Assembly: GCA_030123565.1 (NCBI GenBank)
Contig: CP126122.1
Location: 2,556,800-2,620,799 of the forward strand
DNA: 64,000 nt
From: Nitrospira sp.
Lineage (GTDB): Bacteria > Nitrospirota > Nitrospiria > Nitrospirales > Nitrospiraceae
Direction: 5' to 3'
The notes under the pieces are model-generated. The model had not been told where the DNA came from. It saw only the letters and a list, made by a program, of their open reading frames with translations, and ran no database searches. The translations under genes were made by a program, and so were the position numbers. This document shows positions 14,941-49,254 of this stretch, one piece after another; position 1 is the first letter of the stretch, and every line of letters begins with the position of its first letter.

Positions 14941-16230
14941 CTACAGCCAGTTCACGCGTTCGGCCGGCCGAATATAGATCGGCTCTTCGACCTGAATGCG
15001 CGCCACTTCCTTCCCCGACTTGTTGAAGCCCAGCACGGTATCATTGTACATGTCGAACCGCTTCCCGTGGATCTGAGTCTCGAACACCTTCGGGCCCGGA
15101 ATGACGTCGTACCGGAAAATGATCTGCTGGCTGGCTCTCCAGAGTTGGAGCACCGCCAACAGTTCCCGACTCGGCACGAGATACTTCTCGATCGCGTTGT
15201 CCACCCCCGGCCCGAACATCTGCCGGTTGTAGCCCCGCGGCGCGTGCCGCGGCGGAATGTAGAAGCCGTTGGGCTCCGTGCCCCACTGCGGGTACAAGGG
15301 CAACGCCACCTGCTCCACGCGGATCGCGTAGTACAGCGGGTGCCACCGGTCTTCCGCCCACAGCCCGTCTTCGCCGATCCGCACCAGGCTCTGCATGCGG
15401 ATCTTCCCCACGCAGGCCGCCATACAGCGCGTTTCCATCGGCTCGCCGCCCGTCAAGGGGTCCTTCCCCTCGATCCGCGGATAACAGGCGATGCACTTCT
15501 CCGACACCCGGGTCGTGCCCCGGTACATCGGCTTCTTGAACGGGCACTGCTCCACGCACTTCTTGTACCCCCGGCACCGGTTCTGGTCGATCAATACGAT
15601 GCCGTCTTCCGGCCGCTTGTAGATCGCCTTCCGCGGACAGGCCGCCAGGCACCCCGGATACGTGCAGTGGTTGCAGATCCGCTGCAGATAGAAGAAGTAC
15701 GTCTCATGCTCCGGCAGGCTGCTGCCGGTGAGCTTCCACGGTTCGTCCCGCGTGAAGCCCGACTTGTCGACGTTCTCGACAATGGCCCGCATCGAGGTCG
15801 CCGTGTCTTCATAGATATTCACGAACCGCCATTCCTGGTCCGTGGGGATGTACCCGATCGCCGCCTGGCCCACCTTGGCCCCCGCGTCGAAAATCGTCAT
15901 CCCTTCGAACACCCCGTACGGCGCATGGTGCTTGCGGCCCACCCGCACGTTCCACACCTGCCCGCCCGGATTCACTTGCTCGATGAGCTGGGTGATCTTC
16001 ACGTCGTAGAACTGCGGATACCCGCCGTACGGCTTCGTCTCCACGTTGTTCCACCACATGTACTCCTGCCCCTTCGAGAAGAGCCAGGTCGACTTGTCGG
16101 CCATCGAACAGGTCTGACAAGCCAAACAGCGATTGATGTTGAACACAAAGGCAAACTGCCACTTCGGATGCCGCTCCTCATACGGATACAGCATCTTCCG
16201 TCCCAGTTGCCAGTTATAGACTTCTGGCAT
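14941..16230 (-). CDS. nxrB: nitrite oxidoreductase beta subunit, copy 1
   Basis: 429 residues. Electron-transfer subunit of periplasmic nitrite oxidoreductase, carrying electrons from the molybdenum subunit to the next carrier. Four cysteine groups for [Fe-S] clusters are visible: NRCLACQTCSMADKSTW, then CNHCTYPGCLAACPRK, CRGYKKCVEQCPFKKP, and CIACYPRIEG with CMAACVG. There is no signal peptide, as expected for co-export with the Tat-bearing alpha subunit. It differs from the second copy at 47965 in three residues and about seven nucleotides by eye. The ribosome site CGGAGGTTAAGAG precedes the ATG. It lies 146 nt downstream of nxrA1. Confidence 0.97.
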   Translation of the reverse strand: MPEVYNWQLGRKMLYPYEERHPKWQFAFVFNINRCLACQTCSMADKSTWLFSKGQEYMWWNNVETKPYGGYPQFYDVKITQLIEQVNPGGQVWNVRVGRKHHAPYGVFEGMTIFDAGAKVGQAAIGYIPTDQEWRFVNIYEDTATSMRAIVENVDKSGFTRDEPWKLTGSSLPEHETYFFYLQRICNHCTYPGCLAACPRKAIYKRPEDGIVLIDQNRCRGYKKCVEQCPFKKPMYRGTTRVSEKCIACYPRIEGKDPLTGGEPMETRCMAACVGKIRMQSLVRIGEDGLWAEDRWHPLYYAIRVEQVALPLYPQWGTEPNGFYIPPRHAPRGYNRQMFGPGVDNAIEKYLVPSRELLAVLQLWRASQQIIFRYDVIPGPKVFETQIHGKRFDMYNDTVLGFNKSGKEVARIQVEEPIYIRPAERVNWL

Positions 16231-16376: not shown

Positions 16377-19300
16377 TTAGACCTTGATCTTGATATGTTC
16401 ACCCTTGAGCCATTTGATCATGAACTCGTTTTCCTGACCCGGCGTGAAGCCGGTCCGGACCGGTTCCCACGGACCACGGGCTCCGATGCCGCCGTCTTCC
16501 GCCTTGGTGATACGGATCAGACATTCCTTCGGCACCGTGTTGACCGCGTGGTGATCGATTTCGAACCCCCATTTGAACTTCAAGGCATTGGCCTGCTTCC
16601 CAGGCAACGAGTCGGTCTGGTGCATCGGCATCAACCAGCTCCTGGTAAACGACTGTTGGGCGCCGTACCGGAAGTTGGCCTGATAGCCGGTATCCACCGC
16701 GATGGCGCGCCCGTCCGGCCGCGTCTCGTGGCCCTTCACCGACTTCGGCGTCGACACGTACGGGGCATGTTTCGCCATCGTCACGTGGTATGGATAAGAG
16801 GGGTTGTACTTGGCACGGATCATCAACCGCGCCACCTTGTAGTACGGATCCGAAGGCTTCCAGCCGCGATAGGGCCGGTCCACCGGGTTGCCGTCGACAA
16901 AGACGTAGTCGCCGTCGTTGATGCCGCGGTCTTTCGCCGCCTGCGGATTAATGTGGATCTGGTGCTCGCCGACGCCCGGTGTCCGTTTGTCCATGCGGTA
17001 CGGATCGCCGAAGTTCGACTCGTAGATCTGCACCCAGTCGTTCACCGACCATTGGCTGTGCACCCGGTGCCGGGTCTTGGGCGTGACACAGTAGAACTGG
17101 TAGCCCTTCTCCCACAACGGGTTCGGATAGCGCCTGATTTCCTGCCACGGCAACTTGATGTTCCGCACCGTCTTGTCGTCATGGTGCTGTGCCGTGATGG
17201 GAATCCCATAGTCGTCCGGACGGACGAACGGGTTCGTCGTCATGATGGCATTGGGTAGATACGGCGTACACTCCGGGCCTTCTCGGTGCGAGATGAAGTT
17301 TTCTCCGTACTCGATGGCTTCCGGCTCGATGCGGTAGCTTTCAAGCCGTCCCGACCTGGTCCAATGGGGCTTGGATTCGTTGGTTTCTTCCCAGAGCGGA
17401 TGCCGCGGATAGGTGCGACACATGACCATCCAGCCCTTTTCCGATTTCAACATGACGTCGGCGCTATAGCCGAAGAACGTGCTCGACGCGTCGAGAATGC
17501 GTTGCACGTAGACATCCACACGGTTCTGATACACAAACTTATAGGTATCAGCCATCCGCTGCTCACCGGTGAGGTCTTTCAGTTTCGCTGCCACCCCCGA
17601 GAAGGTGTCGAGGTCGTTGCGGGTGTCGTACAGTGGACGAATCCCGCCTTTCCAGATCTGCACCCAGGGGTTGGATACCGTGGCGGTCATTTCCGGATAG
17701 GTGAACTCCATCCAGGAATTCACCGCAAAGGCTACGTCTGCATGGTTGACGTCCGAGGTCATCTCGATGTCTTGGGTGACCAACATCTCGATGTTCGGAT
17801 CGACGTTTTTCACCATGTCGTAGTGATGCTTGGCGTTGTTGAGAATATTGACGTTCACGACCCAGCGGACTTTGCTGGGGCTCGGCATGTGGGTCTTGCC
17901 GGTGAACACCTTGCGCCCGTACTTCGGCGTGTTGACGATCAAGGCATTGTCGCCGTGATTCCAATAGCCCGGCTCTTCGCCGTAATAGTACTTGCGATAC
18001 TTGATTTCTTTCCCGTGCACATCCTGGTTCAGGTTCATATTCCAGGGGTCTTCTCCGAGATAGACGCTGGCGCCAGCACCGGACCAGGGCGAGGCTTGCC
18101 AAATGCCGACTTTATAATTGCCGGACCAGGTATGACAGCCCGTCCCGAACTTCCCGATATTGCCCGTCAACATCATCACCAATGCGGCGGCACGCCCCAT
18201 GGACGTCATGTGGAAATAGTGACAGACGCCTTCCCCATTGTGGATGGCCGCCGGCTTGACCGTGCCGCAATCCCGCGCCCAGCGAACGATGAGGTCCTTC
18301 GGCGCGCGGTTGACCTGATGCACCGTATCCAGGTCGTAGTCCTGAAGGTGAATCGTGTACATCTGATAGATCGGCATGACGTCGATTTCACGCCCGTTCA
18401 GCAGCTTGACTCGATAGGTGCCGGTCAAGGCCGGATCGATGCCGCTCTCCTGTAGATGGAGGCCGACCTGCTCGCGGTGCAAAGGAACCGCCTTGCCCTT
18501 GGCCAGGTCCCACACCATCATCCCGCCGAGCCGTTGCACCTTCTCTTTGGTCAATCCCTGCACTCGTCCCGAGTACGACTTGGAGAAGTCCGGCAACTGA
18601 TAGTCTTGCAGGACTTCGTGCGGATCCAGATACTGCAAGGTATCCGTCCGTACCAACAGGGGCATGTCCGTAAAGCCCTTGATGAAGTCGATGTCCTGAT
18701 AGTTTTCATCGAGGATGATTTTGCACGAGCCGAGAAACAGCGCGCCGTCCGTTTCAGGACGGACTGGAATCCAATAGTCGGCACGGCTGGCGGTCGGATT
18801 GTATTCCGGCGTAATCACAACAAGACGCGCTCCCCGCTCCATGCTCTCCAGCTTCCAGTGCGCTTCCGGCATCTTGTTCTCGACAAAGTTCTTGCCCCAG
18901 CTGGTATTCAGCTTGGTGAATCGCATGTCGGACAGGTCGACGTCGCAGTTCTGCGTCCCGTTCCACCAGGGCTGAGAGGGATCCTGGTCGCCGTGCCACG
19001 TATAGTTGTTCCAATAACGGCCGCCCTGCGCTTGATCGGGATTGACCTTGCGAACCCAGGAGTCCAGCAACGGCAAGACACAATTGTTGAACCTGGTATT
19101 GGCATGTTTTCCCATCATTCCGAGGATCGGCATACCGGCACGATGCTTGAAGCAGCGCACGCCCGCGCCCTTCATCATCTCGATCATTTCCGGTGCATAG
19201 CCCTGCTCCCGGAGACGCCGCGCCCCGGCTTCGCCGCTGTAGCGGGTTGAAATGACGACCAGCGCTTTTGCCACATACGTAAACGCGGTATCCCAGGACA

Positions 19301-19817
19301 CCCGAACCATATCATCCAGGAACCGGCTGTCGAATTTGTATTTGCGCTTCACATCGGGCGTCAGCTCCGGCGAGCCGTCGTCCATCCACTGCTTCCAGCC
19401 CTTGCGCATCAACGGCCCCTTCATGCGATACGGGCCATACACGCGCCGGTGGAAGGTGAACCCCTTCAAGCACATGCGCGGGTTATGGGCGAACGTGCCG
19501 CGGTTGCCGTAGAGGTCTTCGTAGGTCTGGTGGTCATAGTTCTGCTCGACGCGCATCACGACGCCGTTCCGGACGAAGGCCCGGATGCGGCAGGCATGGG
19601 TGTCGTTCGGCGAGCAGCACCAGGTAAAGGACGAGTCATACCGATACTGATCGTGATAGACGCGCTCCCACGACCGGTCCGGGTATTCGCCCAATGGATT
19701 GTCGACCTCCACGACGGGTTGGAGCGCGGTCAACGCCAAGGCCTTGTCGGCAATGGCTGCAGCCGCCACCGTCCCCGCCGAGACTTTTAAGAACTGCCTG
19801 CGGGATAACTGCATCAT
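16377..19817 (-). CDS. nxrA: nitrite oxidoreductase alpha subunit (molybdopterin), copy 1
   Basis: 1146 residues. Catalytic subunit that oxidises nitrite to nitrate at a bis-molybdopterin molybdenum centre (type II DMSO-reductase family). The N-terminus has a twin-arginine signal (LSRRQFLKVSAGTVA), placing the enzyme in the periplasm. Cysteines near the start (FTWCCSPNDTHACRI and MCLKGF) fit the proximal Fe-S cluster region. Start chosen at the first of two adjacent ATGs with GAGGAGG five bases upstream; the frame reads back to 19958 but without support. It is preceded by a sigma54-type promoter about 240 nt upstream and by a GAF-type sigma54 activator gene. It is clearly less similar to copy 2 than the nxrB pair. 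Confidence 0.97.
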   Translation of the reverse strand: MMQLSRRQFLKVSAGTVAAAAIADKALALTALQPVVEVDNPLGEYPDRSWERVYHDQYRYDSSFTWCCSPNDTHACRIRAFVRNGVVMRVEQNYDHQTYEDLYGNRGTFAHNPRMCLKGFTFHRRVYGPYRMKGPLMRKGWKQWMDDGSPELTPDVKRKYKFDSRFLDDMVRVSWDTAFTYVAKALVVISTRYSGEAGARRLREQGYAPEMIEMMKGAGVRCFKHRAGMPILGMMGKHANTRFNNCVLPLLDSWVRKVNPDQAQGGRYWNNYTWHGDQDPSQPWWNGTQNCDVDLSDMRFTKLNTSWGKNFVENKMPEAHWKLESMERGARLVVITPEYNPTASRADYWIPVRPETDGALFLGSCKIILDENYQDIDFIKGFTDMPLLVRTDTLQYLDPHEVLQDYQLPDFSKSYSGRVQGLTKEKVQRLGGMMVWDLAKGKAVPLHREQVGLHLQESGIDPALTGTYRVKLLNGREIDVMPIYQMYTIHLQDYDLDTVHQVNRAPKDLIVRWARDCGTVKPAAIHNGEGVCHYFHMTSMGRAAALVMMLTGNIGKFGTGCHTWSGNYKVGIWQASPWSGAGASVYLGEDPWNMNLNQDVHGKEIKYRKYYYGEEPGYWNHGDNALIVNTPKYGRKVFTGKTHMPSPSKVRWVVNVNILNNAKHHYDMVKNVDPNIEMLVTQDIEMTSDVNHADVAFAVNSWMEFTYPEMTATVSNPWVQIWKGGIRPLYDTRNDLDTFSGVAAKLKDLTGEQRMADTYKFVYQNRVDVYVQRILDASSTFFGYSADVMLKSEKGWMVMCRTYPRHPLWEETNESKPHWTRSGRLESYRIEPEAIEYGENFISHREGPECTPYLPNAIMTTNPFVRPDDYGIPITAQHHDDKTVRNIKLPWQEIRRYPNPLWEKGYQFYCVTPKTRHRVHSQWSVNDWVQIYESNFGDPYRMDKRTPGVGEHQIHINPQAAKDRGINDGDYVFVDGNPVDRPYRGWKPSDPYYKVARLMIRAKYNPSYPYHVTMAKHAPYVSTPKSVKGHETRPDGRAIAVDTGYQANFRYGAQQSFTRSWLMPMHQTDSLPGKQANALKFKWGFEIDHHAVNTVPKECLIRITKAEDGGIGARGPWEPVRTGFTPGQENEFMIKWLKGEHIKIKV

Positions 19818-20055
19818 GAACACCTCCTCGTAAAAAGACAGGACGGACCTGCGGCGCCATGCACCCACAACGCCGCACACTACTTCACGGATGACCGGAA
19901 CAGGATGATTGTTGCCGAACCCCTTTCCAGGCGCATGGCTCCCCGCCACGAGAGCCACCGGTCACACAGCGACGCGGCGGCGCGCATCCTCTGCGCACAG
20001 AACCACGCTCCTCCGTTAGATGGAGTAATACGTAAAAAATCACGAGCACCTCTTG

Positions 20056-20071
20056 TGCATCTCATATGCCA
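20056..20071 (-). promoter_or_regulatory. sigma54-type promoter candidate for nxrA1
   Basis: On the minus strand it reads TGGCATATGAGATGCA: TGGCA intact, TTGC changed to ATGC, and 10 bases between GG and GC. Predicted start near 20046, leader about 229 nt. Supported by the sigma54 activator gene directly upstream and by two dyads at enhancer distance. Confidence 0.58.
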
Positions 20072-20164
20072 CGAACGACCGCCCAAACGTCGTCGCCTAT
20101 GTCGTTGAAATACCGAACAGGGAGAAGGACGAACGGACGAATCTCGCGGCCTGAACCACCAAGG

Positions 20165-20214
20165 CCACGATCTCGCGTGGTGGTTTTCCGCGATCCCACC
20201 ACGATACATCGTGG
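20165..20214. promoter_or_regulatory. Tandem 16-bp dyads upstream of the nxrA1 promoter
   Basis: CCACGATCTCGCGTGG (20165-20180) and CCACGATACATCGTGG (20199-20214) start 34 bp apart, about three helical turns. They are centred about 127 and 161 nt upstream of the predicted nxrA1 start. Both share CCACGAT and end in CGTGG, and the second has perfect 6-bp arms. This is the classic position and spacing of an enhancer-binding-protein site. Confidence 0.55.
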
Positions 20215-28037: not shown

Positions 28038-30041
28038 ATGGACAGGGGTGAAGACTACGATAAGGCTCGGAGACTGAGAGCCCCCTTGAGCGACCTGCTG
28101 AGCAATCTGCCCATCGCCCGCAAGCTGTTTCTTGCGTCGGTCATCCCTGCTCTGACCGTGCTCCTTCTCAGCATCCTGACCTATCGCAGCGTCACGACCT
28201 TTTCCGACGACGAAGGCCAGCTCAACGATATCTATTATTCTCAGCGGTTGGCATCGGAATACCTCCGGCTGATCGTCGACCTCGAAACGGGATTCCGAGG
28301 TTTCGTCCTGACGAGCCAGGAACACTATCTATTCCCCTATCGAACCGCGCAGGATCACGTCCTGAACCTCGGCCGAACCCTGGAAGCGCACGTCTCCCAG
28401 TACGAAGACCAGCGGGAGCTCATCGCCGCCATCCAACAGTTGGTCAGGCAATTCATTGAGGAAAAAGAGGAACTGATCGAAGCCGTCAAGGCCGAACATA
28501 CGAACGAAGCGCGACTCTATATCGAAGAGGGAAAGGGGCGCGCGTTGATGTTGAAGATCCGGCAGGAGATGGGCCGGCTGGACCACCTCGCCCAAGCCGC
28601 CCTGAACAACAAACTGGCCAAACTCGCGCAGGATCGCGACGACATGTTGATGACGATTCTGGGAGGCGGCCTCTTCGCCTTGACCTGCATGGTGGGGGTA
28701 TTGCATCTCATCGCCCGTTCCATCACGACGCCGCTCGAGCGGCTGGCCAAAGCCGTGGTGGCATCCGAAGCCACTCCCGTCCCCGAGGTTCCGGTGATGA
28801 CCAGAACGGACGAAATCGGGAATCTGTCGCGCGTCATCCATGCCATGAGCTCGGCCATCCATTCCCACATCGTCGCAGTGGAACAGTCGGAAGCCAACCT
28901 GCGCCAGCTCAATCAAGACCTGGCCGGTTCTGAAGCCAAGTATCGCAGCATCGTCGACCACGCCCCCTTCGGCATTTTTACGACCCGCGGCATGACCCTG
29001 ATCTTCAGCAACCGATACAACAGCATCCTTGCGGGACTCGACCCCAGTGAAGAAAAGGATCCCGACGCGGTGCGACGCGCCATTCATCCGGAAGATCGCG
29101 ACCGGGTCATCGTGGAATTCGCGCAGGCCGTGGAGGAAGGACGGTCGTACGAAACGGTCTTCCGGTTTCTTCACGCGGACGGGACTGTCCGAAAGGTCCT
29201 GAGCCGGCGCATCCCGATTCGAGACCCTTCGGGACAGATCGTGATGTACCAGGGATTCAACGTGGATATCACCGCGCTCGACCTCATGCAGACACGCTTG
29301 CGTCGGGCCGAACGGCTCGCGACGCTCGGTCAGGTCGCCGCAGGAATCGCGCACGAAATCAGGAACCCCCTCGTCGGCATAGGCTCGACGGCCTCACTGT
29401 TGCTGGACGACACCGATCCGAACGATACTCGACGGCCCGATCTCGACGTCATTCTCCAGGAGACCAGGCGTCTCGATCGGATCGTCAATCAAATCATCGA
29501 CTATGCCCGCCCCCGCGAGGTCATGCCGGCCGCCTTCGACATGGCACAACTGGTGCAGGAAGTCGGTAAGGTGTTGGACGAACCCCTGGCCCGCAAACAG
29601 GCGACGATCCACCTGTCGGCGCCGGCGCCGCCCTACACCATCCATGCCGATCGCGATCAATTCAAACAGGTGCTGCTCAACGTGATCCAGAACGCCCTCG
29701 AAGCCACGCCGCCGGGCAAGACCATCACCGTGACCCTGGCCCAGCAATCCCGCGGTGTGGAACCGGGTTTGGAGATCGTCGTGACGGATCGGGGAAGCGG
29801 GATCAGTCCCACCCACCTGCCGCATGTGTTCGAACCGTTCTTCACCAGCGGCAAGCCGCGCGGCACAGGGTTGGGGCTCGCCATCTGCCGCAACATTCTC
29901 GATGCGCACGGCGGAGACATTGTGCTGGAGAGTGAGTTGGGGAGCGGCACCACCGTTCGCGTGTGGTGCCCCTTACGGCAACAGCCACAACGTATGCAGG
30001 GAGAAGGGAACCATGCGGGCCACCATCTACGTCACGGATGA
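28038..30041 (+). CDS. hybrid-topology sensor histidine kinase (CHASE3-HAMP-PAS-HisKA-HATPase)
   Basis: 667 residues from the ATG at 28038, which has GCGAGG upstream; a TTG at 27993 is possible. Order of domains: TM1 (LFLASVIPALTVLLLSIL), periplasmic CHASE3 (LIVDLETGFRGFVLTSQEHY), TM2 near residue 215, HAMP, PAS (KYRSIVDHAPFGIFTTRG), H-box (LGQVAAGIAHEIRNPLVGIG), and HATPase with FEPFFTSGKPRGTGLGLAIC. It is a two-component sensor of the NtrB/ZraS style. Its last 29 bases overlap the next gene, a sigma54-activating response regulator, which must be its cognate partner. It is divergent from nirC. Confidence 0.94.
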   Translation: MDRGEDYDKARRLRAPLSDLLSNLPIARKLFLASVIPALTVLLLSILTYRSVTTFSDDEGQLNDIYYSQRLASEYLRLIVDLETGFRGFVLTSQEHYLFPYRTAQDHVLNLGRTLEAHVSQYEDQRELIAAIQQLVRQFIEEKEELIEAVKAEHTNEARLYIEEGKGRALMLKIRQEMGRLDHLAQAALNNKLAKLAQDRDDMLMTILGGGLFALTCMVGVLHLIARSITTPLERLAKAVVASEATPVPEVPVMTRTDEIGNLSRVIHAMSSAIHSHIVAVEQSEANLRQLNQDLAGSEAKYRSIVDHAPFGIFTTRGMTLIFSNRYNSILAGLDPSEEKDPDAVRRAIHPEDRDRVIVEFAQAVEEGRSYETVFRFLHADGTVRKVLSRRIPIRDPSGQIVMYQGFNVDITALDLMQTRLRRAERLATLGQVAAGIAHEIRNPLVGIGSTASLLLDDTDPNDTRRPDLDVILQETRRLDRIVNQIIDYARPREVMPAAFDMAQLVQEVGKVLDEPLARKQATIHLSAPAPPYTIHADRDQFKQVLLNVIQNALEATPPGKTITVTLAQQSRGVEPGLEIVVTDRGSGISPTHLPHVFEPFFTSGKPRGTGLGLAICRNILDAHGGDIVLESELGSGTTVRVWCPLRQQPQRMQGEGNHAGHHLRHG

Positions 30042-31404
30042 CGAACCAGCCATTCGCACCGCCATCGTCAAACGCCTCTCACGGCGCCACCACGCCGTCA
30101 CCGGATTCGAATCGGGCGAAGACCTGCTCCGGGCTGTCACACAACACCTGCCCGACCTCATCCTCCTGGATCTGAAAATGCCCGGTATGGGAGGGCTGGA
30201 GGCGCTCCGGCAGATCCGCCCGATCGCCCCGCAGACCCTGGTCATCATGTTGACGGCGTACGGCACGGTGGAAGACGCCGTCGAAGCGATGCGGTTGGGC
30301 GCCTACGATTTCTTGATCAAAACGGTCGATCTCTCCGGCGTCGACCCCGTCGTCGATCGCGCCCTCGAATTCCTCGCACTGCGCCACCGGGTCGAATTCT
30401 CGCTCGAAGACCAGAACAGTCCCTACGCGTTGTCCAATCTCGACGTCCGCAGTCCCGCCATGCAACTCCTGCTCGGTCAGGTGCGGGACGTGGCGCAGAA
30501 CGCCAGGTCGTCGGTGCTGCTCCAGGGCGAAACCGGCACCGGCAAAGAATTTCTCGCGCGCGTCATCCACTGCAACGGCCCGCGTGCCACAGGCCCCTTC
30601 GTCGCCGTCAACTGCACCGCCATTCCGAAAGAGCTGTTCGAAAGCGAGTTGTTCGGATACGAACGCGGCGCCTTTACCGGCGCCCACCAGCGCAAACGAG
30701 GCCTGCTGGAAAAGGCGGAGGGCGGCACCCTGTTTCTCGACGAAATCGGCGATCTGGATCAGGCCATGCAGGCCAAATTGCTGCGGGTGCTCCAGGAACG
30801 GTCGTTCCGGCGCGTGGGCGGCACGGAGGACCTCTCCGTCGATTTCCGCTTGATGACGGCGACCAATCGCGACCTCAAGAAGGAAGTCGCGCGCGGCGCC
30901 TTCCGCGAAGACCTCTACTTCCGCCTGAACGTGGTCACGTTCGAATTGCCTCCGCTGCGCGTGCGCACGGAAGACATTCTGCCGCTCTGCATGCAGGCGG
31001 TCCTGCGGTTCGGGAAGGAGTTCGGCAAGGAGGTCGTCGAAATCGAACCCGAGGCGCAGGCACTGCTGCAGCGATACAGCTATCCCGGCAACATTCGCGA
31101 ACTCCAGAACATCATCGAACGCGCCATGATCCTCTGCCACGACAAGACCTTGACCGCCGGCTGCCTGCCGCGCGAACTCCATGACCAGGGGCCGCAGATC
31201 GCCGTGGCCATGGGCCAGAGCGAACATCCTTCGCTGCGCATCGAGATGGTGCTGGGCCGGCAAACCCTGTCGGATATCGAGTCCGCCCTCATCGAGGAAG
31301 TGGTTCGACTCTCGGATCACAACAAGACGCTCGCCGCCAAACATCTGGGGTTGACGCGATTCGCCCTGGATCGCCGGCTGAAAAAGCAGATGGAACACGA
31401 CTGA
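30013..31404 (+). CDS. NtrC/ZraR-type sigma54 response regulator
   Basis: 463 residues. Receiver domain with TDDEP acidic pocket, phospho-acceptor Asp in LILLDLKMPGMGG and Lys in YDFLIKTVD. AAA+ domain with GETGTGKE, an intact GAFTGA and [11 protein letters not shown]-terminal Fis-type helix-turn-helix (NKTLAAKHLGLTRFALDRRL). The ATG at 30013 (GAAGGGAACC upstream) is preferred over the long frame that begins inside the kinase gene. Translational overlap with the kinase indicates a cognate pair. This is one of four sigma54 activators in the window and a candidate for the CGCACTGTGCG enhancer sites. Confidence 0.94.
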   Translation: MRATIYVTDDEPAIRTAIVKRLSRRHHAVTGFESGEDLLRAVTQHLPDLILLDLKMPGMGGLEALRQIRPIAPQTLVIMLTAYGTVEDAVEAMRLGAYDFLIKTVDLSGVDPVVDRALEFLALRHRVEFSLEDQNSPYALSNLDVRSPAMQLLLGQVRDVAQNARSSVLLQGETGTGKEFLARVIHCNGPRATGPFVAVNCTAIPKELFESELFGYERGAFTGAHQRKRGLLEKAEGGTLFLDEIGDLDQAMQAKLLRVLQERSFRRVGGTEDLSVDFRLMTATNRDLKKEVARGAFREDLYFRLNVVTFELPPLRVRTEDILPLCMQAVLRFGKEFGKEVVEIEPEAQALLQRYSYPGNIRELQNIIERAMILCHDKTLTAGCLPRELHDQGPQIAVAMGQSEHPSLRIEMVLGRQTLSDIESALIEEVVRLSDHNKTLAAKHLGLTRFALDRRLKKQMEHD

Positions 31405-42447: not shown

Positions 42448-42515
42448 CAGGCAACGGACCGCCACACCCTCGCCTGGCGGAATGAACATGATGAATGGGA
42501 CGGAGAGAGACGAGG

Positions 42516-43937
42516 ATGTCGGGCACCAAACATAGAGTTTTCACCATCTTGCTGGTCGAAGGCAACGCCGGGGACGTGGATATGTTCCTGCGGACCGTCG
42601 AGCAGGAGCTGCCGCGCCATGAAGACGAGCAGGTCGAGCTGGTCATCAATGCCACGGCCGAAGGCGCGCTGGAACGTCTGCAACAACAGCCGATCGACCT
42701 GATCATCGCCGACGTTCGTTTACCCGGCATGAGCGGCATCGAGCTCCTACGGCGCGTGCAGGATATGAACCGGCGCATTCCCGTCATCATCGTCAGTTGG
42801 ATCAATGCGACCGACACGGTCATCGATGCCATGCGGCACGGGGCCTTCGACTACATCGTCAAACCCTACGAAACCATGGATCTGGCGACGCGCATTCATC
42901 GGGCCATGCGCATGTCTGAAATCTTATTGCAGGCCGTTCCCGATGAGCCAGCCGCTCCCCGCATTCCCTTCAAGAACCTCGTCGGGGTCAGCGCCCCCAT
43001 CAGAAACGTCATGGCGATGATCGAAGCCATCGCCAAGGTCCCCTCGACGACGTTGATTATCGGAGAAACCGGTACGGGCAAAGAACTGATCGCGAAGGCG
43101 ATCCATGAGCGGAGTCTCGATTGCGACGGACCGTTTCAAGTCGTCGACTGCACCACCTTCGCGGAAGGCACCGTGGAAAGCGAGCTGTTCGGCCACGTGC
43201 GCGGCGCATTCACTGGCGCCGTGGCCGACAAGACCGGCTTGATCGAGTCAGGAAGGCACGGCACCGTCTTCCTCGATGAAATCGGCGACCTCCCCGCCAA
43301 TCTCCAAGCCAAACTATTGCGCGTCTTGGAAGAAGGCGAGGTCCGGGCCGTCGGCAGCACGCAGCAGAGGAAAGTCAACGTCCGCTTCATCGCGGCCACC
43401 AACCAGGACCTGGCCGAGAAGGTCAAGCGGAACGAGTTCAGGAAAGACCTTTTCTTTCGCCTGAATGTCATGGTGATCCGCGTACCGCCCCTGCGCGAAC
43501 GCACGGAAGACGTCCCCGTCCTCGCACGTCACTTCATGGCCCGCTATGCCAAGGAGTTTACGAAACACGTGGAGGATCTCCATCCGTCGGCGGTCACCGA
43601 GCTGGTCGCCTACCCCTGGCCGGGAAACGTCCGAGAGCTGCGAAATGTGATGGAGCGGGCCGTGATGCTCGCGAAGGGCGATCGTATCGGCTTGGCCGAC
43701 GTGGCCGGCATGCTGGCGGTTCCCGACGAACGCCAGCGAGAGTCCATCGATGAAGACTACCTGCATCTTCCTTACGCCAAGGCCAAAGAACAGGTGTTGG
43801 AAGCCTTCAACCGGCGGTACATCTCGACCAAACTGACGATCCACCGAGGTAATGTCACCCACGCCGCTCAGGATGCCGGCCTTCCGCGCTCTTATTTCCA
43901 TGAAATCATGCGTCGCTATACAAAAGATGAAAAATAG
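42516..43937 (+). CDS. NtrC-like sigma54 activator with atypical receiver, upstream of nxrA2
   Basis: 473 residues from the ATG at 42516 (GACGAGG upstream; an ATG at 42495 is the alternative). Its receiver begins ILLVEGNAGDVD, where the usual acidic pair is replaced by E-G-N, but the phospho-acceptor Asp (LIIADVRLPGMSG) and Lys (YIVKPYE) are kept. The AAA+ domain has GETGTGKE, intact GAFTGA and TVFLDEIGDL, followed by a C-terminal Fis-like helix-turn-helix (NVTHAAQDAGLPRSYFHEIM). It faces the same way as nxrA2 and ends about 475 nt before it, mirroring the GAF-type activator before nxrA1, so it is the likely regulator of nxrA2B2. No kinase gene adjoins it. Confidence 0.93.
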   Translation: MSGTKHRVFTILLVEGNAGDVDMFLRTVEQELPRHEDEQVELVINATAEGALERLQQQPIDLIIADVRLPGMSGIELLRRVQDMNRRIPVIIVSWINATDTVIDAMRHGAFDYIVKPYETMDLATRIHRAMRMSEILLQAVPDEPAAPRIPFKNLVGVSAPIRNVMAMIEAIAKVPSTTLIIGETGTGKELIAKAIHERSLDCDGPFQVVDCTTFAEGTVESELFGHVRGAFTGAVADKTGLIESGRHGTVFLDEIGDLPANLQAKLLRVLEEGEVRAVGSTQQRKVNVRFIAATNQDLAEKVKRNEFRKDLFFRLNVMVIRVPPLRERTEDVPVLARHFMARYAKEFTKHVEDLHPSAVTELVAYPWPGNVRELRNVMERAVMLAKGDRIGLADVAGMLAVPDERQRESIDEDYLHLPYAKAKEQVLEAFNRRYISTKLTIHRGNVTHAAQDAGLPRSYFHEIMRRYTKDEK

Positions 43938-43964: not shown

Positions 43965-44412
43965 CCAACCAAATGACTCCAACTAATTGTTTTTTCTTCA
44001 TTTTCTGAAATAGCACCTACCAGTCAGCCTTTACAGACACAACATTGTCATTGTTTTTCATATAGTTACAAGGCTATCCCATCGACGTAGTCAGCAGTTC
44101 CTGACCTCTATGTTTTTACCCCCCTCACACCCCCCGTTCTGCACCAGAATTAACAACTCAACTAATTGATTTTAAGCACTTTTTTTAAAATGCCCCGTGG
44201 CCATTTCCGCCTTCCCTGCGGCACATGAATTGTATTGCCTTCAACGCGCGAGCGAGTGTCCGCTCACGAAATTCGAAGTACGGGTGACCGATGTTTCCAA
44301 TTCGACACATGGAAAGGGGGTGGGTGAAACTAGATTGCATTCTGGGGAGTGTAGTGAGTTTGTACGAACAGGTGCATGAGGGAATCATGTGCCTCACAAG
44401 GAGGTAGCTACT
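43965..44412. other. AT-rich upstream region and leader of nxrA2
   Basis: About 450 bp without a gene. It is markedly richer in A+T than its surroundings up to about 44200, with T-runs at 43989-43996, 44053-44058 and 44181-44187. The decamer CAACTAATTG occurs twice, at 43980-43989 and 44159-44168. The DNA looks bendable and could bind IHF-like or H-NS-like proteins. It bears no resemblance to the nxrA1 upstream region. Confidence 0.5.
44219..44234 (+). promoter_or_regulatory. Weak sigma54-type promoter candidate for nxrA2
   Basis: Reads CGGCACATGAATTGTA. The -24 GGCAC is good, but the -12 element is TTGTA instead of TTGCA. The GG to G spacing is right. Predicted start near 44245, leader about 168 nt. 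Confidence 0.35.
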
Positions 44413-47964: not shown

Positions 47965-49254
47965 ATGCCAGAAGTCTATAACTGGCAACTGGGACGGAAG
48001 ATGCTGTATCCGTATGAGGAGCGGCATCCGAAGTGGCAGTTTGCCTTTGTGTTCAACATCAATCGCTGTTTGGCTTGTCAGACCTGTTCGATGGCCGACA
48101 AGTCGACCTGGCTCTTCTCGAAGGGGCAGGAGTACATGTGGTGGAACAACGTGGAGACGAAGCCGTACGGCGGGTATCCGCAGTTCTACGACGTGAAGAT
48201 CACCCAGCTCATCGAGCAAGTGAATCCGGGCGGGCAGGTGTGGAACGTGCGGGTGGGCCGCAAGCACCATGCGCCGTACGGGGTGTTCGAAGGGATGACG
48301 ATTTTCGACGCGGGGGCCAAGGTGGGCCAGGCGGCGATCGGGTACATCCCCACGGACCAGGAATGGCGGTTCGTGAATATCTATGAAGACACGGCGACCT
48401 CGATGCGGGCCATTGTCGAGAACATCGACAAGTCGGGCTTCACGCGGGACGAACCGTGGCGGCTGTCCGGCAGCAGCCTGCCGGAGCATGAGACGTACTT
48501 CTTCTATCTGCAGCGGATCTGCAACCACTGCACGTATCCGGGGTGCCTGGCGGCCTGTCCGCGGAAGGCGATCTACAAGCGGCCGGAAGACGGCATCGTA
48601 TTGATCGACCAGAACCGGTGCCGGGGGTACAAGAAGTGCGTGGAGCAGTGCCCGTTCAAGAAGCCGATGTACCGGGGCACGACCCGGGTGTCGGAGAAGT
48701 GCATCGCCTGTTATCCGCGGATCGAGGGGAAGGACCCCTTGACGGGCGGCGAGCCGATGGAAACGCGCTGTATGGCGGCCTGCGTGGGGAAGATCCGCAT
48801 GCAGAGCCTGGTGCGGATCGGCGAAGACGGGCTGTGGGCGGAAGACCGGTGGCACCCGCTGTACTACGCGATCCGCGTGGAGCAGGTGGCGTTGCCCTTG
48901 TACCCGCAGTGGGGCACGGAGCCCAACGGCTTCTACATTCCGCCGCGGCACGCGCCGCGGGGCTACAACCGGCAGATGTTCGGGCCGGGGGTGGACAACG
49001 CGATCGAGAAGTATCTCGTGCCGAGTCGGGAACTGTTGGCGGTGCTCCAACTCTGGAGAGCCAGCCAGCAGATCATCTTCCGGTACGACGTCATTCCGGG
49101 CCCGAAGGTGTTCGAGACTCAGATCCACGGGAAGCGGTTCGACATGTACAATGATACCGTGCTGGGCTTCAACAAGTCGGGGAAGGAAGTGGCGCGCATT
49201 CAGGTCGAAGAGCCGATCTATATTCGGCCGGCCGAACGCGTGAACTGGCTGTAA
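47965..49254 (+). CDS. nxrB: nitrite oxidoreductase beta subunit, copy 2
   Basis: 429 residues with the same four Fe-S cysteine groups as copy 1. The three residue differences from copy 1 lie within a 15-residue stretch near residue 155-170 (ENIDKS, PWRLSGS here; ENVDKS, PWKLTGS in copy 1). Outside that patch I see only isolated silent changes, such as CAGATCATCTTCC against CAGATCATTTTCC and a TAA instead of TAG stop. AGAAGGAGGATTC precedes the ATG. The near-identity in DNA, against diverged nxrA partners, points to recent gene conversion or strong constraint. Confidence 0.97.
   Translation: MPEVYNWQLGRKMLYPYEERHPKWQFAFVFNINRCLACQTCSMADKSTWLFSKGQEYMWWNNVETKPYGGYPQFYDVKITQLIEQVNPGGQVWNVRVGRKHHAPYGVFEGMTIFDAGAKVGQAAIGYIPTDQEWRFVNIYEDTATSMRAIVENIDKSGFTRDEPWRLSGSSLPEHETYFFYLQRICNHCTYPGCLAACPRKAIYKRPEDGIVLIDQNRCRGYKKCVEQCPFKKPMYRGTTRVSEKCIACYPRIEGKDPLTGGEPMETRCMAACVGKIRMQSLVRIGEDGLWAEDRWHPLYYAIRVEQVALPLYPQWGTEPNGFYIPPRHAPRGYNRQMFGPGVDNAIEKYLVPSRELLAVLQLWRASQQIIFRYDVIPGPKVFETQIHGKRFDMYNDTVLGFNKSGKEVARIQVEEPIYIRPAERVNWL

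Follow-up and report, generated by a model that had tools for sequence, protein, structure and literature searches.

A conserved pair of dyads as a putative enhancer at the sigma54 promoter of nxrA1 in Nitrospira

Two dyads between a sigma54 activator gene and nxrA1 of Nitrospira very probably constitute an enhancer (UAS) pair of the nxrA1 sigma54 promoter, to be bound by the adjacent GAF-AAA+-HTH activator. They are read as landing sites of this activator since they show strict conservation and accompany the activator wherever it occurs. On the minus strand the gene order is the activator, a 452-bp gap, nxrA1 and nxrB1. Within the gap, the distal dyad, an 18-bp spacer, the proximal dyad, the TTTCAACGACATAG block and a -24/-12 element follow one another towards nxrA1. 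The features are listed below, with positions counted in the window, the whole stretch of DNA analyzed.

G000:C1:2556800-2620799: the window, 64 kb of a closed 4.62-Mb Nitrospira genome
20270..21790, minus strand: activator gene, GAF-AAA+(GAFTGA)-HTH_8 sigma54 activator, candidate binder of the dyads
20199..20214, minus strand (read 20214 to 20199): distal dyad CCACGATGTATCGTGG, CCACGA-TGTA-TCGTGG, centre at -161.5
20181..20198, minus strand: spacer; TGG (20196-20198) and CCA (20181-20183) extend the dyads inwards, and CGCGG (20188-20192) forms a middle half-site
20165..20180, minus strand (read 20180 to 20165): proximal dyad CCACGCGAGATCGTGG, CCACG-CGAGA-TCGTGG, centre at -127.5
20097..20110, minus strand: IHF-like block TTTCAACGACATAG (TTTCAA-N4-ATA compared with WATCAR-N4-TTR), at a distance of 102-105 bp from the distal dyad
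20056..20071, minus strand: putative sigma54 -24/-12 promoter TGGCATATGAGATGCA, TGGCA-N7-TGCA in 22 of 22 loci
20033..20044, minus strand: conserved, predicted initially transcribed stretch CGTGATTTTTTA, recognized from the alignment and kept in nearly all loci
16377..19817, minus strand: nxrA1, molybdopterin subunit of nitrite oxidoreductase, with a TAT signal
14941..16230, minus strand: nxrB1, iron-sulfur subunit, 3' of nxrA1

The initial annotation had placed two dyads here, 127 and 161 nt upstream of the predicted start, and both the dyads and the distances were recovered, with the -12 at 20057 and +1 predicted at 20045. The distal dyad has perfect 6+6 arms and a 4-nt loop, while the proximal dyad has perfect 5+5 arms with the sixth pair broken. 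Their start-to-start spacing is 34 bp as annotated, and its description as three helical turns is only approximate, the value being 3.2 turns at 10.5 bp per turn. The middle half-site CGCGG is located 11 bp, or about one turn, from the inner half-site of the distal dyad.

The window has many single 16-bp dyads when two mismatches are allowed, and the two dyads might be chance inverted repeats in GC-rich DNA. This reading is scarcely credible. The pair is the only one of same-arm 5-6-5 dyads within 60 bp of each other across the 64 kb, against a mean of 0.017 such pairs in Markov shuffles of the window, and none of 4000 shuffles of the intergenic region yielded one. Even with up to two mismatches allowed, the pair matches a single place in the 4.6-Mb genome. 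The conservation of the pair in all orthologues, seen in the alignment, refutes a chance origin. In a scan of 84,980 species with a pattern related to the pair, 16 stretches were found, of which 14 come from Nitrospira-type nitrifiers, Ca. N. defluvii among them; the remaining two, from Corynebacterium and Microbacterium, were read as chance matches in GC-rich actinobacterial genomes.

The phylogenetic footprint comprised the 22 activator-nxrA1 loci in which the whole gap between the activator stop and the nxrA start could be read. Activator orthologues in the genus show 82-90% identity and are followed by nxrA. Loss of the dyads where the synteny of the activator and nxrA1 is kept, the outcome that the initial annotation had set against its own reading, was not seen: both dyads are retained exactly 34 bp apart in 22 of 22 loci, and the pair is also kept in G024 and in a second genus (G039). 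Invariant columns account for 20/23 of the arms, 0/9 of the loops, 9/10 of the promoter, and 22/348 of the other intergenic positions (arms versus other intergenic columns, Fisher P=1.3e-18, only a guide since the rows are related). The right arm TCGTGG of the proximal dyad and the inward TGG/CCA extensions are kept in nearly all loci, and the proximal left arm alternates between CCACG and CCGCG in some genomes. A middle half-site, CGTG or CGCGG, is present in most loci and missing in the clade of L010-L012, L016, L017, and L030. In the same clade, the loops of the two dyads are mutually reverse-complementary (ATATGT and ACATAT), and the whole module is a long near-perfect inverted repeat.

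Whole-genome pattern counts gave a single pair in each genome, including those with two nxrA copies; the exception is G007, which has two pairs and two activator-nxrA1 loci. The pair is absent from the same-genus genomes without a close activator orthologue, G002 (66% complete), G008, G009, G015, G025, G027, and G028. The region upstream of the window's own nxrA2 (44200-44389) contains no dyads of the nxrA1 kind. A sigma54 activator of the response-regulator type (42495-43937) precedes this second copy. The remaining single matches to CCACGA-N4-TCGTGG from the genome-wide scans were discarded, as they mostly lie within coding ORFs and are about as numerous as those of a reversed-pattern control. 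The initial annotation had also contrasted the dyads with CGCACTGTGCG sites elsewhere in the window. This contrast is weak and not meaningful: one exact copy (1938) and a total of four places within one mismatch were found, against 2.1 expected by chance.

Inverted repeats located 38-71 nt past the activator stop codon could also be RNA hairpins in the activator mRNA, acting as a transcription terminator or a 3'-end stabiliser, and the arm changes seen beside paralogues (CCGCGA/TCGCGG and CTACGA/TCGTAG) keep the pairing. However, no T run follows the dyads on the minus strand, and a terminator and sigma70 scan gave nothing at the dyads. Folding is weak compared with shuffles (z -1.75), and the proximal hairpin is missing from the best fold. 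An Rfam search of the upstream region returned only two sub-threshold chance matches. The geometry is also contrary to a hairpin function. Among the 22 loci, the distance from the activator stop to the dyads drifts over the 38-71 nt given above, while the 34-bp spacing is fixed and the start of the distal dyad stays 139-145 bp from the promoter; this argues against a terminator and indicates that the dyads keep their place relative to the promoter, and not relative to the gene before them. RNA hairpins are thus a very improbable explanation.

The putative promoter TGGCATATGAGATGCA has three mismatches to TGGCACG-N4-TTGCW and is absent from a scan allowing two. The sequence match by itself is insufficient, and the element is accepted as a promoter because it is conserved, every one of the 22 loci having GG and GC at an interval of 10 nt. 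Between the dyads and the promoter, the block TTTCAAYGACATAG (20097-20110, minus strand) occupies a constant position in 22 of 22 loci, with 7 of its 14 columns invariant. Its match to the IHF consensus has two mismatches in fixed positions. Judged from its sequence, the conserved TTTCAA-N4-AT block may be an IHF bend site between enhancer and promoter. The genome encodes sigma54 (rpoN, PF04552 at G000:C1:608254-608736), and its IHF genes were recognized with IHF-alpha above the cut-off and IHF-beta slightly below. The leader of nxrA1 extends for about 220 nt from the predicted start. A motif GACCG...TGGAAAGGGG is common to both nxrA leaders, about 137 nt before the start in nxrA1 and at about 44285-44320 in nxrA2, although their promoters differ; in other same-genus genomes TGGAAAGGGG corresponds to CTGGAAGGAGGG. 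The shared motif is possibly a leader RNA element.

The protein expected to bind the dyads was approached through relatives of the activator in other genera. In G039 (genus g9), an activator with 75% identity, nxrA, and the 34-bp pair occur together. In G172 (genus g20), an activator with 61% identity adjoins an unrelated small gene and not nxrA; it is accompanied by a variant pair, CCGCGACATATCGTGG and CCGCGACTAATCGCGG, again with 34-bp spacing, as well as by TTTTCAACGAGATAG, which has the same TTTCAACGAGATAG block, and by the promoter-like CGGCATGGCTCCTGCT (GG-N10-GC). Relatives elsewhere have CCGCGA-N4-TCGCGG, GCGCGA-N4-TCGCGC, or TCGCGA-type dyads 16-95 nt past the activator stop, usually followed by a -24/-12 match; in L154, the GCGCGA-N4-TCGCGC dyads are 33 bp apart. 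Downstream of the related activators lie, among others, genes for a subunit of a bd-type oxidase and for a NirK-like copper oxidase (TIGR02376 at 180.9 bits, below the cut-off of 296.3). Since related activators carry versions of the dyad before other genes, the dyads follow the activator and not nxrA. The claim of the initial annotation that the dyads are an enhancer for the adjacent GAF-type activator gains support from this tracking into other genera.

CTACGA-type as well as CCGCGA-type variants adjoin paralogues. A more distant paralogue, L140 (48% identity), is encoded in the same genome as the window, with CTACGAGATTTCGTGG and CTACGATATGTCGTAG upstream of a DsrE-like gene. In G023 and G019, relatives of L140 are accompanied by CCACGA dyads, and the single CCACGA-N4-TCGTGG matches in these two genomes are the site of the paralogous activator. 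A CGA-N4-TCG dyad is present within 200 nt of the stop in 18 of 34 activators, against 1.0 expected from shuffles. From these sequences, CGA-N4-TCG appears to be the core site of the activator family. The rule is not universal across the family: a dyad fitting the strict rule was not found at 16 of the 34 activator loci, including L134 and L022 (60-61% identity, helix NPETLRSR). The 60%-identical universal paralogue (L134, L022-L024) was considered as a dyad carrier and set aside, as no dyad was seen. In genus g14, CGA-N4-TCG dyads were observed upstream of nxrA (L124 and L130, with L122 also listed), and a TGGTATGRGAGTTGCC promoter is located about 150 nt before the nxrA start; the logic is the same and the outer bases are different.

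A dyad upstream of a promoter leaves its protein unnamed, and further sigma54 activators are encoded nearby in the window. The pair could therefore serve a different regulator, either one of the response-regulator-type sigma54 activators (29824-31404 or 42495-43937) or a protein that represses nxrA1. Yet the dyads accompany the GAF activator into other genera, where they stand before other genes, and the pair is missing from every same-genus genome without the GAF activator. The arm sequence shifts between activator subfamilies, and positions of -127 and -161 are typical of activators, not of repressors. A different regulator is accordingly improbable, and the adjacent GAF activator is the preferred candidate.

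The AAA+ domain, the GAFTGA loop, and the Fis-type HTH were all found in the activator adjoining nxrA1. Its recognition helix contains PSTLRSR, in contrast to the KRTTL-type helix of the paralogues L137-L139. By sequence, its best NCBIfam score is to FhlA, which has a Fis-type HTH as well (405.8, residues 118-502), far below the equivalog cut-off of 830. It shares the GAF-AAA+-HTH architecture of NifA, the closest full-length solved structure being 9qq6 (residues 5-500), but scores 404.7 against the nifA equivalog cut-off of 528.85, and no NifA-type UAS (TGT-N10-ACA) was found between the distal dyad and nxrA1 in the 22 loci. The score to the NorR equivalog, 345.5, is likewise below its cut-off of 476. 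At glnA, NtrC uses two dyads separated by about three turns, with a -24/-12 promoter downstream; unlike the nxrA1 activator, NtrC is a response regulator, and its site sequence is unrelated. By analogy, the closest worked-out precedent for a GAF activator that uses several enhancer sites as an assembly scaffold is NorR. At norVW of E. coli, three enhancer sites are needed and scaffold the NorR oligomer (PMC2941729). Similar to the arrangement at nxrA1, NorR is a GAF-AAA+-HTH activator whose gene adjoins its target, and the sigma54 promoter of the target is preceded by several enhancer sites (PMC2941729). In contrast to the three sites of NorR, nxrA1 has two full dyads and at most a middle half-site, and their sequence is different.

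The dyads, their conservation, their locked geometry, their uniqueness in the genome, and their co-occurrence with the activator can be read directly from the DNA. From these we infer activator binding, DNA looping, a role of IHF, and a signal sensed by GAF. Dimers of the activator would bind the dyads via the TCGTGG half-sites, and the fixed 34-bp spacing would allow a higher-order ring to nucleate from them. A bend, perhaps made by IHF at the TTTCAA-N4-AT block, would lie between enhancer and promoter, and the AAA+ ring would then remodel sigma54-RNA polymerase at the -24/-12 element, so that nxrA1 and nxrB1 would be switched on from the start predicted at 20045. The GAF signal may be nitrite or NO, a guess prompted by nxrA and nirK as targets of the family.

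A wider model is tentative, and may well prove wrong. It proposes a subfamily of GAF-type sigma54 activators in Nitrospiraceae with a shared core CGA-N4-TCG and subfamily-specific outer bases (CCA with one helix, other bases with the helix NPSTLRSR), by which nitrite oxidoreductase, nirK, and a bd-like oxidase gene would be wired into one nitrite- or NO-responsive circuit. The defluvii-type genus would have a private copy with its own code driving only nxrA1, and if so, this would account for the differing expression of nxrAB paralogues. Close activator relatives were observed before NirK-like or bd-type oxidase genes at L145, L151, L156, L164, and L165, in most cases with CCGCGA/TCGCGG-type dyads between the activator and the gene. 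The core shared by nirK and oxidase genes, and the activator relatives beside them, suggest a wider nitrogen-oxide circuit.

In N. moscoviensis, sigma54-dependent and NifA-like regulators adjoin nxrAB, and the paralogues are differentially expressed (PMC6606698). The choice of Nitrospira between near-identical nxrAB copies is called unresolved in that paper, in which the word "promoter" occurs 0 times and no binding site is given (PMC6606698). A literature search of open-licence papers found no described cis-site of nxr. The kind of element is textbook, while the site, the protein that owns it, and the core of the family appear to be new members of this kind. The outcome is a 60-bp control element together with its expected reader protein, the sole promoter in the genome bearing it, and an nxrA copy without it. 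The question of copy choice in nxr can thereby be reduced to a binding and reporter experiment, for which Nitrospira genetics is unnecessary.

The two nxrB copies of the window (14941-16230 and 47965-49254) differ at only 7 of 1290 bases, whereas the nxrA proteins are 86% identical. The near-identity of the nxrB copies against the diverged nxrA proteins suggests gene conversion of nxrB.
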